Assembly: GCA_002159065.1 (NCBI GenBank)
Contig: LZRV01000107.1
Coordinates: 1 to 60,934, forward strand
Direction of reading: 5' to 3'
From: Paenibacillaceae bacterium ZCTH02-B3
GTDB lineage: Bacteria; Bacillota; Bacilli; Paenibacillales; Paenibacillaceae
DNA length: 60,934 nt
Made by a program: the position numbers and the translations under genes. The notes under the pieces were generated by a model, which did not search any database, was not told the origin of the DNA, and saw only the letters and a program-made list of their open reading frames with translations. Below, in pieces: positions 42,688 through 47,458 of the stretch. Numbering within the stretch: the stretch's first letter is position 1; each line of letters begins with the position of its first letter.

Positions 42688-43059
42688 ATGATGCGGGAAG
42701 AACGGCGGGAAGCCCGCCGGGAAACCGGACGGGAAGCCGGAAGGAAGGCGCGGAACGGACCGCACAAGGTCGTCATGCTGAATCCCGCGGACAACGTGGC
42801 CGTCGCGCTCGCGGACATCGCCGCCGGAACGCGCGTCCGCGTGGCATGCGGGGACGAGACGCTGGAGGTGGAGCTGGCCGATCCCGTCGAATTCGGCCAC
42901 AAGTTCGCGGTAAGGCCCATCGCCGCGGGGGAGAACGTCATCAAGTACGGCGAAGTGATCGGCAGAGCCACGGCCGACATCCGGCCGGGCCAGCATGTGC
43001 ATGTTCACAACATCGAGGGCATCAGGGGAAGGGGGGATCGGCTTGCGACGGGAACTTGA
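42688..43059 (+). CDS. UxaA-type dehydratase, small SAF-domain subunit
   Basis: A 123-residue protein. After about 25 Arg/Glu-rich residues comes a SAF domain with VVMLNPADNVAVALADI and GHKFAVRPIAAGENVIKYG. The histidines of HVHVHN near the end are the expected metal ligands. In altronate and galactarate dehydratases this is the N-terminal part; here, as in sulfolactate lyase SuyA, it is a separate gene. It overlaps the next coding region by 17 bases. Confidence 0.82.
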   Translation: MMREERREARRETGREAGRKARNGPHKVVMLNPADNVAVALADIAAGTRVRVACGDETLEVELADPVEFGHKFAVRPIAAGENVIKYGEVIGRATADIRPGQHVHVHNIEGIRGRGDRLATGT

Positions 43060-44218
43060 AACGCGGTTCTGGGGATACCGGCGCCCGGACGGGCGGGTCG
43101 GCGTGCGCAACCATGTGCTCATTCTGCCCACGATCACGTGCGCGGCGCAGGCGGCGCACCAGATCACCCAGCTGGTGGCGGGGACCGTTTCGTTCATTCA
43201 CCAGCACGGCTGCGCCCAGGTGGGCGTCGACTACGAGCAGACGTTCCGCACCTACGTCGGCATGGGCGCCAACCCCAACGTCTACGGCGTCGTGGTGATG
43301 GGGCTGGGCTGCGAGACGCACCAGGCCCGGCGCGTGGCCGAGGAAATCGCCAAAACCGGCAAGCCGGTGGAAGTGGTGTCCATCCAGGACCATGGCGGCA
43401 CGCTGATGGCGATCGCGCAGGGGGCCAGGATCGCGGCGGCGATGGTGGCGGACGCTTCCCGCCTGATGCGGGAGCCGGCGTCCGTCAGCGAGCTTGTCGT
43501 CGGCACCGAGTGCGGCGGATCCGACGCCTGTTCGGGCATTTCGGCGAATCCGGCCGTCGGCTGGGTCAGCGACCGGGTGGCGGACGCCGGCGGCACGTCC
43601 ATTCTGGCGGAAACCACCGAGCTCATCGGCGCGGAGCATCTGCTGGCGAAGCGGGCGGTGAGCGACCGGGTGGCCAGGCGGGTCTACGAGGTCATCCACG
43701 CGATGGAAAGCCGGGCGTTCCAGATGGGGGTGGACATCCGCACGGGCAACCCGAGCCCGGGCAACATCCGCGGCGGACTCAGCACGCTGGAGGAAAAATC
43801 GCTGGGCGCCGCGGCCAAGGCCGGAACCCGGCCGCTGCGGGAAGTGGTCGACTATGCCCAGCGGCCGAGCGAGAAGGGACTGGTCTGGATGGACACGCCG
43901 GGGCACGACATCGAGCAGCTCACCGGCATGGTGGCCGGCGGCGCCCAGGTCGTCCTGTTCACCAGCGGAAGGGGAACGCCCACCGGATCGCCCATCGCCC
44001 CGGTGATCAAGATCGCCACGAATTCGTTCCTGTTCGAGCGGATGGGGGACAACATGGATTTCAACGCGGGTACCGTCATCGAGGGCACCGAGACCATCGA
44101 GGAGGCCGGAGCCCGGCTGTACGAAGAGCTGCTGGCGGTCTGCTCCGGCAAGCTCACCCGGTCGGAAATCCTGAAGCAGCATGATTTCGGCATCTGGCGG
44201 ATCGGACCGACGTTTTGA
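43043..44218 (+). CDS. UxaA-type dehydratase, large subunit
   Basis: A 391-residue protein starting TTG at 43043 after GGAAGGGGGG. It begins with GYRRPDGRVGVRNHVLILPT, the family opening, and has HQHGCAQVG, NPNVYGVVVMGLGCE and GTECGGSDACSGISANPAVG with conserved Cys and His. It probably pairs with the preceding SAF subunit to dehydrate a sugar acid (altronate, galactarate or similar). (R)-sulfolactate lyase SuyB has the same build and cannot be excluded. Confidence 0.83.
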   Translation: MRRELETRFWGYRRPDGRVGVRNHVLILPTITCAAQAAHQITQLVAGTVSFIHQHGCAQVGVDYEQTFRTYVGMGANPNVYGVVVMGLGCETHQARRVAEEIAKTGKPVEVVSIQDHGGTLMAIAQGARIAAAMVADASRLMREPASVSELVVGTECGGSDACSGISANPAVGWVSDRVADAGGTSILAETTELIGAEHLLAKRAVSDRVARRVYEVIHAMESRAFQMGVDIRTGNPSPGNIRGGLSTLEEKSLGAAAKAGTRPLREVVDYAQRPSEKGLVWMDTPGHDIEQLTGMVAGGAQVVLFTSGRGTPTGSPIAPVIKIATNSFLFERMGDNMDFNAGTVIEGTETIEEAGARLYEELLAVCSGKLTRSEILKQHDFGIWRIGPTF

Positions 44219-44231
44219 ATGTTTCCCCAAA

Positions 44232-44297
44232 CCCGGGCGCGGCGCATACCCTGACAGGGGGACGATTGCCGATTGTGCCGCTCCCGGGATTTTTTTA
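44232..44297 (+). terminator. Terminator of the dehydratase operon
   Basis: CCCGGG-C-GCGGC (44232-44243) pairs with GCCGC-T-CCCGGG (44277-44288) with one mismatch, followed by a run of eight T. Confidence 0.65.
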
Positions 44298-44430: not shown

Positions 44431-45453
44431 GTGTCCGTTCAGACGAAACCCAGGGTGTTTGTCGGGTGTTCCGCGGAAGCCATCCAGTACGCCCGCGCCG
44501 TGCATGAACAACTCGCTCCCTATGCCAGGGTGCGTGCCTGGTACGCGGGGATTTTCGCGCCGGGCGAGTATCCCATGGAATCCCTGGAGAAATGCCTGGA
44601 CGCGAGCGACTTCGCCGTGTTCATTTTCGCTCCGGACGACGTGGTGCTGATGCGCGGCAAGTATTACTTCCAGCCGCGGGACAATACGTTGTTCGAAATG
44701 GGCCTGTTCTGGGGCAGGCTGCGACGCGGGCGGGTGTTCTGCCTGATGCCCGAGCGGGTGCGGGAACGGGACGACCTGGTGCCGGGGGAAACGGTGGGCG
44801 AATTTCGCCTCCTGTCCGATCTGCAGGGGCTGACGGTGCTGCGGTACGATCCGTCGGCCGAGGAAGAGGGGGAATTCGCGGCGGCGGTGGATACGGCATG
44901 CGGCGCCGTCATCGACGCGATCCAGAAAAAGGGACTGTTCGTCGATCCGCGCCGCGCCCTGGAAGACACGAGGGCGGTGCTGGCGCGAAGGACGGCCACG
45001 CTTCGGTTTCTGTGGGAATACATCCGCGGCGTCACCGTGAAAAACGAGGAAGAGAAACGCGATGCCGTCTGCGAGGCGGTCCGCAATTCGCTGCTTGTTC
45101 CGGAGTCGTGCCGCGTGACGGGTGCCGCGCTCTGGCAGCGGCTGTCCACCGGCCGCATCGTCCAGGTCGCCGGAAACGTCGGCAAGGGACGGGATATCGA
45201 CCCGTCCGGGGCGGACGGACGGGAGAGGCCGAACCTGGTGGCGGACACGTTCGAGAAAGGCGAATGGAACTTCTACGAGCGGAAGGAAATCGGCATGCTG
45301 TACATCTTGTGCTATCCGCTGGGCGGGGAACTGGCCCTCGCCGTGCACCTGTCCGCCGACGAACCCGTGCCGCGGGAGCGGCTGGGCGAAATGGTGCGGC
45401 AGAACGAGGAGCTTCTGCATACCATTCACTATTTGCTGGGAGGTATCGCATGA
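44431..45453 (+). CDS. CAP12/Pycsar-like TIR-domain protein with uncharacterised C-terminal domain
   Basis: A 340-residue protein. Residues 7-110 match the CAP12-type TIR-like domain: RVFVGCSAEAIQYA opens it, FAVFIFAPDD forms a central strand, and PRDNTLFEMGLFWGRL (82-97) holds the expected catalytic glutamate, Glu89. Such domains cleave NAD+ when an antiviral signal is sensed. The C-terminal part (about 190-340) is not a known cyclic-nucleotide sensor to my eye; its strands IGMLYILCYPLGGELALAVH suggest a GAF-like fold. The GTG at 44431 follows AAGGGG. It is coupled to the next gene by ATGA. Defence function is inference. Confidence 0.75.
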   Translation: MSVQTKPRVFVGCSAEAIQYARAVHEQLAPYARVRAWYAGIFAPGEYPMESLEKCLDASDFAVFIFAPDDVVLMRGKYYFQPRDNTLFEMGLFWGRLRRGRVFCLMPERVRERDDLVPGETVGEFRLLSDLQGLTVLRYDPSAEEEGEFAAAVDTACGAVIDAIQKKGLFVDPRRALEDTRAVLARRTATLRFLWEYIRGVTVKNEEEKRDAVCEAVRNSLLVPESCRVTGAALWQRLSTGRIVQVAGNVGKGRDIDPSGADGRERPNLVADTFEKGEWNFYERKEIGMLYILCYPLGGELALAVHLSADEPVPRERLGEMVRQNEELLHTIHYLLGGIA

Positions 45454-45677
45454 GCCGACAGAAATCCCGAGAACGTCCCCTGCCGGGCGCGCTGCCCGTC
45501 CGCCGGAAGGCCGTCAAAGGCGTCCATCCCGTCCGTCCGGGAGGCGGAACCGCCGGGCCGCGGGCGGCCGGAAGCGCCGGGCCGGTCTTCGTCGGTCCGA
45601 CGCCGGACGGCGGCGACAAAGAGTTCGTCAAGATCGTCGCCGGCAAGGTGGGACGCCGGAAACCGTGGTTTGTGTGA
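45450..45677 (+). CDS. Small basic protein coupled to the TIR gene
   Basis: A 75-residue protein starting at the ATGA that ends the TIR gene. It is rich in Arg, Pro and Gly, has no membrane segment, and ends with a more ordered stretch (KEFVKIVAGKVGRRKPWFV). I do not recognise it. The tight coupling suggests it acts with the TIR protein, perhaps as an inhibitor, adaptor or nucleic-acid contact, but nothing in the sequence proves that. Confidence 0.55.
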   Translation: MSRQKSRERPLPGALPVRRKAVKGVHPVRPGGGTAGPRAAGSAGPVFVGPTPDGGDKEFVKIVAGKVGRRKPWFV

Positions 45678-45713: not shown

Positions 45714-45742
45714 AAACCCGGGGAGCGCATCTCCCCGGGTTT
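45714..45742. terminator. Bidirectional terminator
   Basis: AAACCCGGGGAG (45714-45725) pairs perfectly with CTCCCCGGGTTT (45731-45742) across CGCAT. A-rich and T-rich flanks serve both the TIR pair and the convergent cytochrome gene. Confidence 0.75.
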
Positions 45743-45772
45743 GCCTTGCGGGTCGTTTGTCAGGATCATTTG

Positions 45773-46171: not shown

Positions 46172-47458
46172 TTACAGGTTCAGCTTTTCCCGCGTCGTCC
46201 ACAGACCGGCGGACGGAGTGCTGATGAAGTAGATTTCTTCCCCGTTCGCAAGGCGGTTGAAGCCGTTTTTCAGCCGGTCCACCGGATAGCGTTCCAACGC
46301 TTCTTCCAGATCCATGTATCCGAAGTGGACGGATTCGATTTCCTCTTTGGACAGGTGGCCGGGCGCATAGGTGATGCGGAATCTGCCCTCCGACGACCCG
46401 TGGATCAGGTGGGCCGTGGCGTGGGTGAGATCCTGCAACTCCTCGTTTTGCCGCCAGGCTTCGAGGATTTTGGGCGTTCCGGCGTACCCGTATTTGCGGA
46501 TGATCCGGTCCACCTCTTCCTTTTCGCCGAAGCGCTTCAGGCCGGGGGCGATGACGATCAGTTCGCCGCCGTCGGCCATCGCCTTGCGGGTGCGGTAGAT
46601 CGCCTTGTTGGCCACCCAGGTGCTGAAAAACTCGTCGCCCTGCATGTAGGCCACCACTTTTTTGAGCGGCGGCACGATTTCGATGTTTTCTTCTCCCGAC
46701 TGGCGGGCGGCCTGCAGATAGGTGTCCAGGTCGTCCCCGCAGTAGAAGCCGCTGTGGACCAGTCTGCCTTCCTCATTGTATTTCATGACGATCTGAATAT
46801 ACACATCCGGCAGATGGCCCAGGTACTCGGATTCCGCCTTGTTGAAGCAGTGCCGGACCGGCGTCACCAGGTTGCCCAGGTTGTTCTCGATGCCGTAGCA
46901 GGCGGAGGCCATGTGGGAGGCGCAGATCATGTCCTTGCCGCCCAGGCCGATGAAATAGTTTTTGTTGTGGTTGGCGAATCCCAGCACCTCGTGGGGCACC
47001 ACGTGTCCGACGTTGACGATGATGTCCCACTTTTCCTCCAGCAGGGTGCGGTTGAGGCTGACCGGGATCTCCCAGTCGGCGGCGCCGCGGGTGACCGCTT
47101 TTACGTAATCCGCGGGGATGGCGCCGATGGTTTTGCAGCCGTTTTTCCAGTCGTGGACGAGGATGCGCTCTTCCGGAACATCACCGAACATCCAGCGGTT
47201 CTGCTCCGGCGTGTGCGGAACGTGCTGCCCCAGCGTGGGGATGAGGTACACGTCCGCTCCGGCGTCGGTGAAAAAGTGATACAGGATGTTGGTGATCCAT
47301 CCCGCGCCGGAATGGGCCCGCGTGATGTCGGGCGGAAGCAGCAGCACCTTGCGCGGCCTGGCGCTGAGGCGCTTCAGGCATTCTTCGCCCGCGCGGCGGG
47401 TCAGCTCTTCCATCCGGGGGCGCGGGATTTCCGGAGCCCGCTCGAAAAACCACGACAT
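46172..47458 (-). CDS. LarA-family nickel-pincer-type racemase/epimerase
   Basis: A 428-residue protein of the LarA (DUF2088) family. Typical segments are LLPPDITRAHSGAG, TLGQHVPHT with catalytic-type histidine, NVGHVVPHE and GLGGKDMICASH, where the lysine would hold the nickel-pincer cofactor. LarA homologues isomerise several 2-hydroxy acids. The cofactor enzymes LarB, LarC and LarE are not in the window. AAGGAG precedes the ATG at 47458. The frame is open upstream but lacks signals. Confidence 0.82.
   Translation of the reverse strand: MSWFFERAPEIPRPRMEELTRRAGEECLKRLSARPRKVLLLPPDITRAHSGAGWITNILYHFFTDAGADVYLIPTLGQHVPHTPEQNRWMFGDVPEERILVHDWKNGCKTIGAIPADYVKAVTRGAADWEIPVSLNRTLLEEKWDIIVNVGHVVPHEVLGFANHNKNYFIGLGGKDMICASHMASACYGIENNLGNLVTPVRHCFNKAESEYLGHLPDVYIQIVMKYNEEGRLVHSGFYCGDDLDTYLQAARQSGEENIEIVPPLKKVVAYMQGDEFFSTWVANKAIYRTRKAMADGGELIVIAPGLKRFGEKEEVDRIIRKYGYAGTPKILEAWRQNEELQDLTHATAHLIHGSSEGRFRITYAPGHLSKEEIESVHFGYMDLEEALERYPVDRLKNGFNRLANGEEIYFISTPSAGLWTTREKLNL

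Follow-up and report, generated by a model that had tools for sequence, protein, structure and literature searches.

A TIR gene with a predicted GAF-fold tail is coupled to a conserved micro-partner gene in Bacilli

TIR NADases are usually grouped by their activating sensor or cyclase, and a TIR gene accompanied by nothing larger than a very small one raises the question of how such a protein stays silent. We analyzed a 60,934-nucleotide stretch of DNA from Paenibacillaceae bacterium ZCTH02-B3 (contig LZRV01000107.1, positions 1 to 60,934; hereafter, the window) that contains such a pair, encoding a 340-residue protein, here called TIR-GAF, and a 75-residue micro-partner (Table 1). A preliminary description, made from the sequence letters, had proposed a self-contained TIR plus sensor unit with a small partner, possibly an undescribed defence module.

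Table 1. Features of the TIR-GAF operon in the window and of two DUF4062-headed sister loci (last two rows)
Feature	Position	Strand	Basis or remark
Terminator (hairpin with T-run) following the upstream altronate/galactarate dehydratase-type gene	44232..44296	+	-34.2 kcal/mol, z -3.0; CCCGGG...CCCGGGATTTTTTT
TIR-GAF gene	44431..45453	+	GTG start, 340 aa; translation, family searches, homologues, structure model
TIR domain, CAP12/Pycsar type, residues 1-170	44431..44940	+	PF10137, PADLOC CBASS TIR effector, VIA-align
Long helix and predicted GAF-fold domain, residues 182-340	44974..45450	+	AlphaFold2 model and VIA-align; without Pfam sequence match
Micro-partner gene, 75 aa	45450..45677	+	ATG overlaps the TIR-GAF TGA stop (ATGA)
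Conserved C-terminal segment of the partner (predicted docking), residues 46-75, VFVGPTPDGGDKEFVKIVAGKVGRRKPWFV	45585..45674	+	Alignment, purifying selection, strand pair in read-through model
Terminator hairpin behind the operon	45714..45745	+	RNA fold z -5.1
DUF4062-GAF gene L127	5695-6732	-	Overlapping or closely coupled small gene
DUF4062-GAF gene L136	10330-11364	+	Overlapping or closely coupled small gene

A CAP12-type TIR head and a predicted GAF-fold tail

Residues 8-140 of TIR-GAF matched the Pfam family CAP12-PCTIR_TIR (PF10137; E = 1.2e-22) at 80.5 bits against a gathering cut-off of 24.7, and the head matched the PADLOC CBASS TIR effector family (7e-40). The CAP12-like TIR with a PRDN motif (P82 to N85) and Glu89 that had been read from the letters was thereby confirmed, with R83, D84, N85 and E89 invariant across an alignment of 50 homologues. 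Glu89 is the predicted catalytic residue, and we infer that TIR-GAF is an NAD+ hydrolase. The TIR domain of SfSTING (7un8) was a structural neighbour of the modelled head (VIA Z = 15.1), and PycTIR (8jsj) was the top sequence-scoring TIR in the PDB.

The C-terminal half had been described as free of a recognised cyclic-nucleotide sensor. This stood insofar as residues 190-340 gave no Pfam, PADLOC or NCBIfam family match worth keeping and PDB profile searches with the tail returned nothing useful, but structure prediction for these residues, which the description had proposed as a check, now assigns them a fold. In an AlphaFold2 model built from 50 sequences (pLDDT 88.6), residues ~180-340 matched GAF domains in VIA-align with Z values of ~11-12.6, the best neighbours of the predicted model being 3ci6 (PtsP; Z = 12.6, 3.5 Å, 138 residues) and 8dgd (Z = 12.4), with fRMsr (3ksf), phytochrome (8rvx) and PDE2A (3ibj) also found. 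The rows aligned to residues 182-340 were GAF domains, and a family missing from the VIA-align list, such as STING, is not thereby excluded. The tail resembles the GAF domains of PtsP, fRMsr, phytochrome and PDE2A in predicted fold (Z = 11.5-12.6) but differs from them in having no detectable Pfam GAF match. Because the Pfam profile found a GAF domain in 0 of 27 members, the fold assignment rests on prediction, and at that level we predict it with confidence.

An obligatory micro-partner under coding selection

The basic 75-residue protein said to start at the ATGA of the TIR stop was likewise borne out, with a net charge of +12 by direct count. It had no Pfam, PADLOC or NCBIfam family match worth keeping, and a PDB profile search with it gave nothing useful. 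Homologous loci were collected by an alignment-based scan in which the best 80 of 199 qualifying stretches were kept (38-51% identical), covering Paenibacillaceae and other Bacilli, with Paenibacillus, Cohnella, Brevibacillus, Gorillibacterium, Neobacillus, Peribacillus, Ureibacillus and Sporosarcina among the genera. A small gene lay directly behind TIR-GAF in 80/80 of these best 80 of 199 loci, so that the homologue search for conserved pairing envisaged in the preliminary description came out in its favour. Since every one of these loci carries a coupled copy, the small gene is real rather than a product of chance, and the micro-partner is obligatory in TIR-GAF units. The two genes overlapped by 4 bases in 51 of the 80, with spacings of -23 to +28 bases in the remainder, and the partners ranged from 47 to 105 residues with a median net charge of +8 (both for the best 80 of 199 loci).

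Alignment of the partners revealed a variable N-terminal part and a conserved C-terminal part with the consensus GPS-V-E-G-x-D-x-E-Y-x-K-V-x-S-G-K-V-x(3)-K-P-S-F-A. Across 82 close pairs, differences at codon positions 1/2/3 were 0.028/0.015/0.322 for the last 26 partner codons, compared with 0.073/0.050/0.300 for the TIR gene, and purifying selection on these codons is stronger than on the TIR gene. A spurious small open reading frame is ruled out by this coding selection together with the 80/80 conservation (best 80 of 199). A motif derived from the partners occurred in 69 of the 80 (best 80 of 199 loci), in 0 of 8,626 background open reading frames and behind none of eight TIR-only relatives; because the expression was composed with knowledge of the partners, the first count is not independent, and the information lies in the zero background.

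Predicted docking of the partner and a proposed switch

In four loci, including L036, L041 and L068, a TAG stop separates TIR-GAF from a partner in the same frame. Translating this TAG as Gln, a device that passes through a stop codon, yielded a natural-sequence fusion of TIR-GAF and partner for modelling. In the fusion model the linker was disordered (pLDDT <50), partner residues 46-50 and 56-66 formed strands within a stretch of pLDDT ~76-89. The GAF strand, residues 280-285 in the window protein, lengthened to the equivalent of 278-285. For the 75-residue protein, whose structure prediction had also been suggested, the read-through model thus gives a disordered basic N terminus and a C-terminal strand pair. 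A structure look-up with the fusion model (411 residues) returned TIR-like rows only, models of more than 400 residues being poorly served. The top inter-protein covarying pair joined GAF W279 to partner G65. Of the 60 highest-ranking pairs, 46 fell in residues 171-340, where ~51% were expected; this comparison, at an effective depth of 39, is not a formal test. Secondary structure and this weak covariation do no more than suggest docking on the edge of the GAF sheet near Trp279, and the partner hairpin could fold without docking.

We propose, with a probability of roughly 0.5, that the pair forms an autonomous two-gene NADase switch with the micro-partner as a GAF-docked regulatory subunit. 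The TIR head would be a dormant NAD+ hydrolase and the GAF domain, set behind a long signalling helix, its regulatory input, while the micro-partner would be a dedicated regulatory subunit, produced by translational coupling, that docks with its conserved C-terminal hairpin at the GAF edge strand, around Trp279, and leaves its disordered basic N-terminal tail exposed. Partner-bound GAF most likely keeps the TIR heads apart at rest; a trigger on the GAF pocket or the basic tail would change the GAF dimer, and the TIR heads would then assemble and deplete NAD+, leading to growth arrest or abortive infection. The fold and the docking are model predictions; we infer the trigger, the inhibited resting state and, from the TIR class, a role against phages. 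An inhibitory partner is preferred over an activating one: the partner is the sole companion of TIR-GAF, and TIR NADases act by assembling (PMC13174449), which favours inhibition at rest.

Genomic context and distribution

The operon had been placed between two terminators, and both flanking hairpins indeed fold well below shuffles (Table 1); a simple terminator scan reported neither. A promoter-like site lay close upstream in 20/80 loci (25%; best 80 of 199) compared with 4% of shuffles under a strict score, and none was found upstream of the window operon under that score. Because such sites are commoner in the relatives than in shuffles, they suggest that TIR-GAF units may have their own promoter.

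A dehydratase gene and a cytochrome c gene are adjacent in the window, as is a gene for a nickel-dependent epimerase-type protein. This last gene (46172-47458, minus strand) scored 586.7 bits (cut-off 500) against NF052594, a family of putative nickel-dependent hexonate epimerases, and split galactarate/altronate dehydratase-type genes lie near it at 42688-44218. No neighbour besides the partner recurred across clades, and locus position was stable inside species groups. An accessory role for the neighbouring metabolic genes was ruled out, as the neighbours differ between clades. PADLOC-like proteins were only sporadic among 137 neighbouring proteins from ~39 loci, mostly methylases and regulators, and most loci have variable neighbours unrelated to defence and lie outside defence islands. 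The preliminary description had named homologues without the small gene and in metabolic surroundings as what would speak against its proposal: none of the best 80 of 199 lacked the gene, whereas their contexts were largely non-defensive.

The TIR-GAF query matched 15/61 genomes, 12 of them at full length (window included), and the GAF-domain profile matched 44/399 class genomes. With the same profile the phylum sample yielded nothing outside the family, whereas the class sample did yield such members; a single-sequence scan of genome contigs gave no match. One full pair is plasmid-borne (Terribacillus pDMT04), annotated as 'nucleotide-binding protein' and 'hypothetical protein'. Carriage as phage cargo was rejected. 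Phage records gave no match; beyond them there was the one plasmid copy, and a single locus (L137) seems to adjoin a prophage. In that locus (apparently identical to L020, from Cohnella zeiphila), the pair lies beside repressor-like and metallopeptidase-like (HELCH motif) genes at an apparent prophage end.

Sporadic defence-like neighbours and a clade-stable position fit a physiological stress role equally well, in which the enzyme would adjust NAD+ or make an ADP-ribose signal according to a GAF-bound metabolite, redox state or nucleotide, with no part in phage defence. Solitary chromosomal loci kept in place within species groups, the scarcity of defence-like neighbours and the small molecules that GAF domains usually bind all speak for such a role, but the distribution is patchy, one copy sits on a plasmid, the head has been lost repeatedly and the TIR class is otherwise known from phage defence, and we consider this explanation unlikely.

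The partner follows the GAF domain rather than the head

The proposed switch assigns the partner to the GAF domain, and the sister loci bear on this point. Two divergent members (L127 and L136, the latter containing the gene first seen as L014) carry a DUF4062 head before the GAF tail; the L014 head matched PF13271 (E = 3.7e-15) and the L127 head was assigned by similar sequence. The tail common to the DUF4062-headed gene and TIR-GAF showed 31% over 121 residues (BLASTP), and the small genes behind both DUF4062-GAF genes encode a related C-terminal motif. The two DUF4062-headed rows group together in the GAF tree (support 99/98), which implies one or more exchanges of the head. The sensor-partner module appears from these comparisons to have changed between TIR and DUF4062, so that a single module occurs with NADase heads from two families. 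None of eight CAP12-type TIR-only relatives (viral contigs in which the TIR part alone matches) had a partner behind it. Partner distance tracked GAF distance (partial r = 0.44) more than TIR distance (0.23), and sequence evidence supports a partner that belongs to the GAF domain rather than to the TIR head. Three partner matches without an intact TIR-GAF gene (L152-L154) look like relics; L133 and L154 keep the GAF end and the partner after loss of the TIR head, and L152 and L153 probably do likewise.

A toxin-antitoxin system, with TIR-GAF as an always-active NADase toxin and the mostly disordered small protein as a labile antitoxin needed continuously, would account for the strict pairing, the translational coupling and the relics that keep the partner once the head is gone, and it suits the modelled division into a disordered basic N terminus and a folded C-terminal segment. 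The partner follows GAF across two heads, however, and an antitoxin would therefore have to inhibit through GAF; chromosomal position is clade-stable, and the relics are equally compatible with random decay. We find this explanation quite unlikely. For the switch with a GAF-docked partner, the architecture, obligatory pairing, coding selection and partner-GAF linkage are supported. A bolder version would make the pair a new class of immune switch: a GAF-fold sensor that can be exchanged between TIR and DUF4062 heads would always be under the control of a dedicated micro-protein docking through beta-addition, with the exposed basic tail of that micro-protein as infection sensor or bait. This version is tentative and on balance doubtful.

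Comparison with known systems

CBASS Cap12 and TIR-STING (SfSTING 7un8; 9lmq, 9lmr) share with TIR-GAF the PF10137 subfamily, an N-terminal TIR with a C-terminal sensor and a predicted catalytic Glu, but TIR-STING has STING in place of the predicted GAF-fold tail, and the TIR-GAF unit differs from Cap12 in having a coupled micro-protein and no CD-NTase. The NCBIfam Cap12 equivalog cut-off lies far above TIR-GAF (450 bits versus 70.9 and 59), and a CD-NTase (SMODS, PF18144) had no match in the unit's own genome (G000, 97.7% complete). In Pycsar, PycTIR (8jsj) carries its TIR at the C terminus (residues 155-309), whereas that of TIR-GAF is N-terminal; Pfam and PDB sequence searches matched no cNMP-binding domain in TIR-GAF, and the two-gene operon between terminator-like hairpins holds no pyrimidine cyclase. 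Thoeris also uses TIR-based NAD+ chemistry and occurs in Bacilli, but here no ThsA/ThsB pair lies among the adjacent genes and the TIR matches PF10137, not the ThsB family. The earlier statement that a cyclase or ThsB-like partner is absent agrees with these searches. The self-contained TIR plus sensor unit is well supported by the conserved pairing, the predicted GAF-fold tail and the genome free of SMODS CD-NTase matches; its defence role is putative.

An orphan CBASS or Pycsar effector, whose GAF domain would bind a cyclic nucleotide from a cyclase encoded elsewhere, is very improbable: the TIR subfamily is common to Cap12 and PycTIR and many GAF domains bind cyclic nucleotides, but a genome-wide search for nucleotidyltransferases of the SMODS type found none, no neighbour gene recurs across clades and the partner would be left unexplained.

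A further related system is Swarozyc from Klebsiella, a DUF4062 TIR-like NADase triggered by phage portal and tested as a single gene, for which phage-triggered NADase activity has been experimentally shown (PMC13174449). Both join a NADase head to a C-terminal auxiliary domain, and DUF4062-headed GAF units exist (L127, L136), but the window head is a PF10137 TIR, with DUF4062 only in sisters, and TIR-GAF differs further in its GAF tail, partner gene and loci outside defence islands. We place the unit among TIR NADase systems as a variant that belongs to none of CBASS, Pycsar, Thoeris and Swarozyc. In the literature searched, with subscription journals largely outside that search, we found no description of a TIR-GAF plus partner unit and nothing combining TIR with GAF. 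The unit is widespread in Gram-positives; the family libraries searched recognise neither its predicted GAF-fold tail nor its obligatory micro-protein, and with it the silencing of a solitary TIR can be put directly to the test.

Two minor observations concern the history of these loci. Head-first decay recurs among the apparent relics (L133, L152, L153 and L154), and one species, Paenibacillus typhae, carries two diverged copies of TIR-GAF with partner (L068 and L073).
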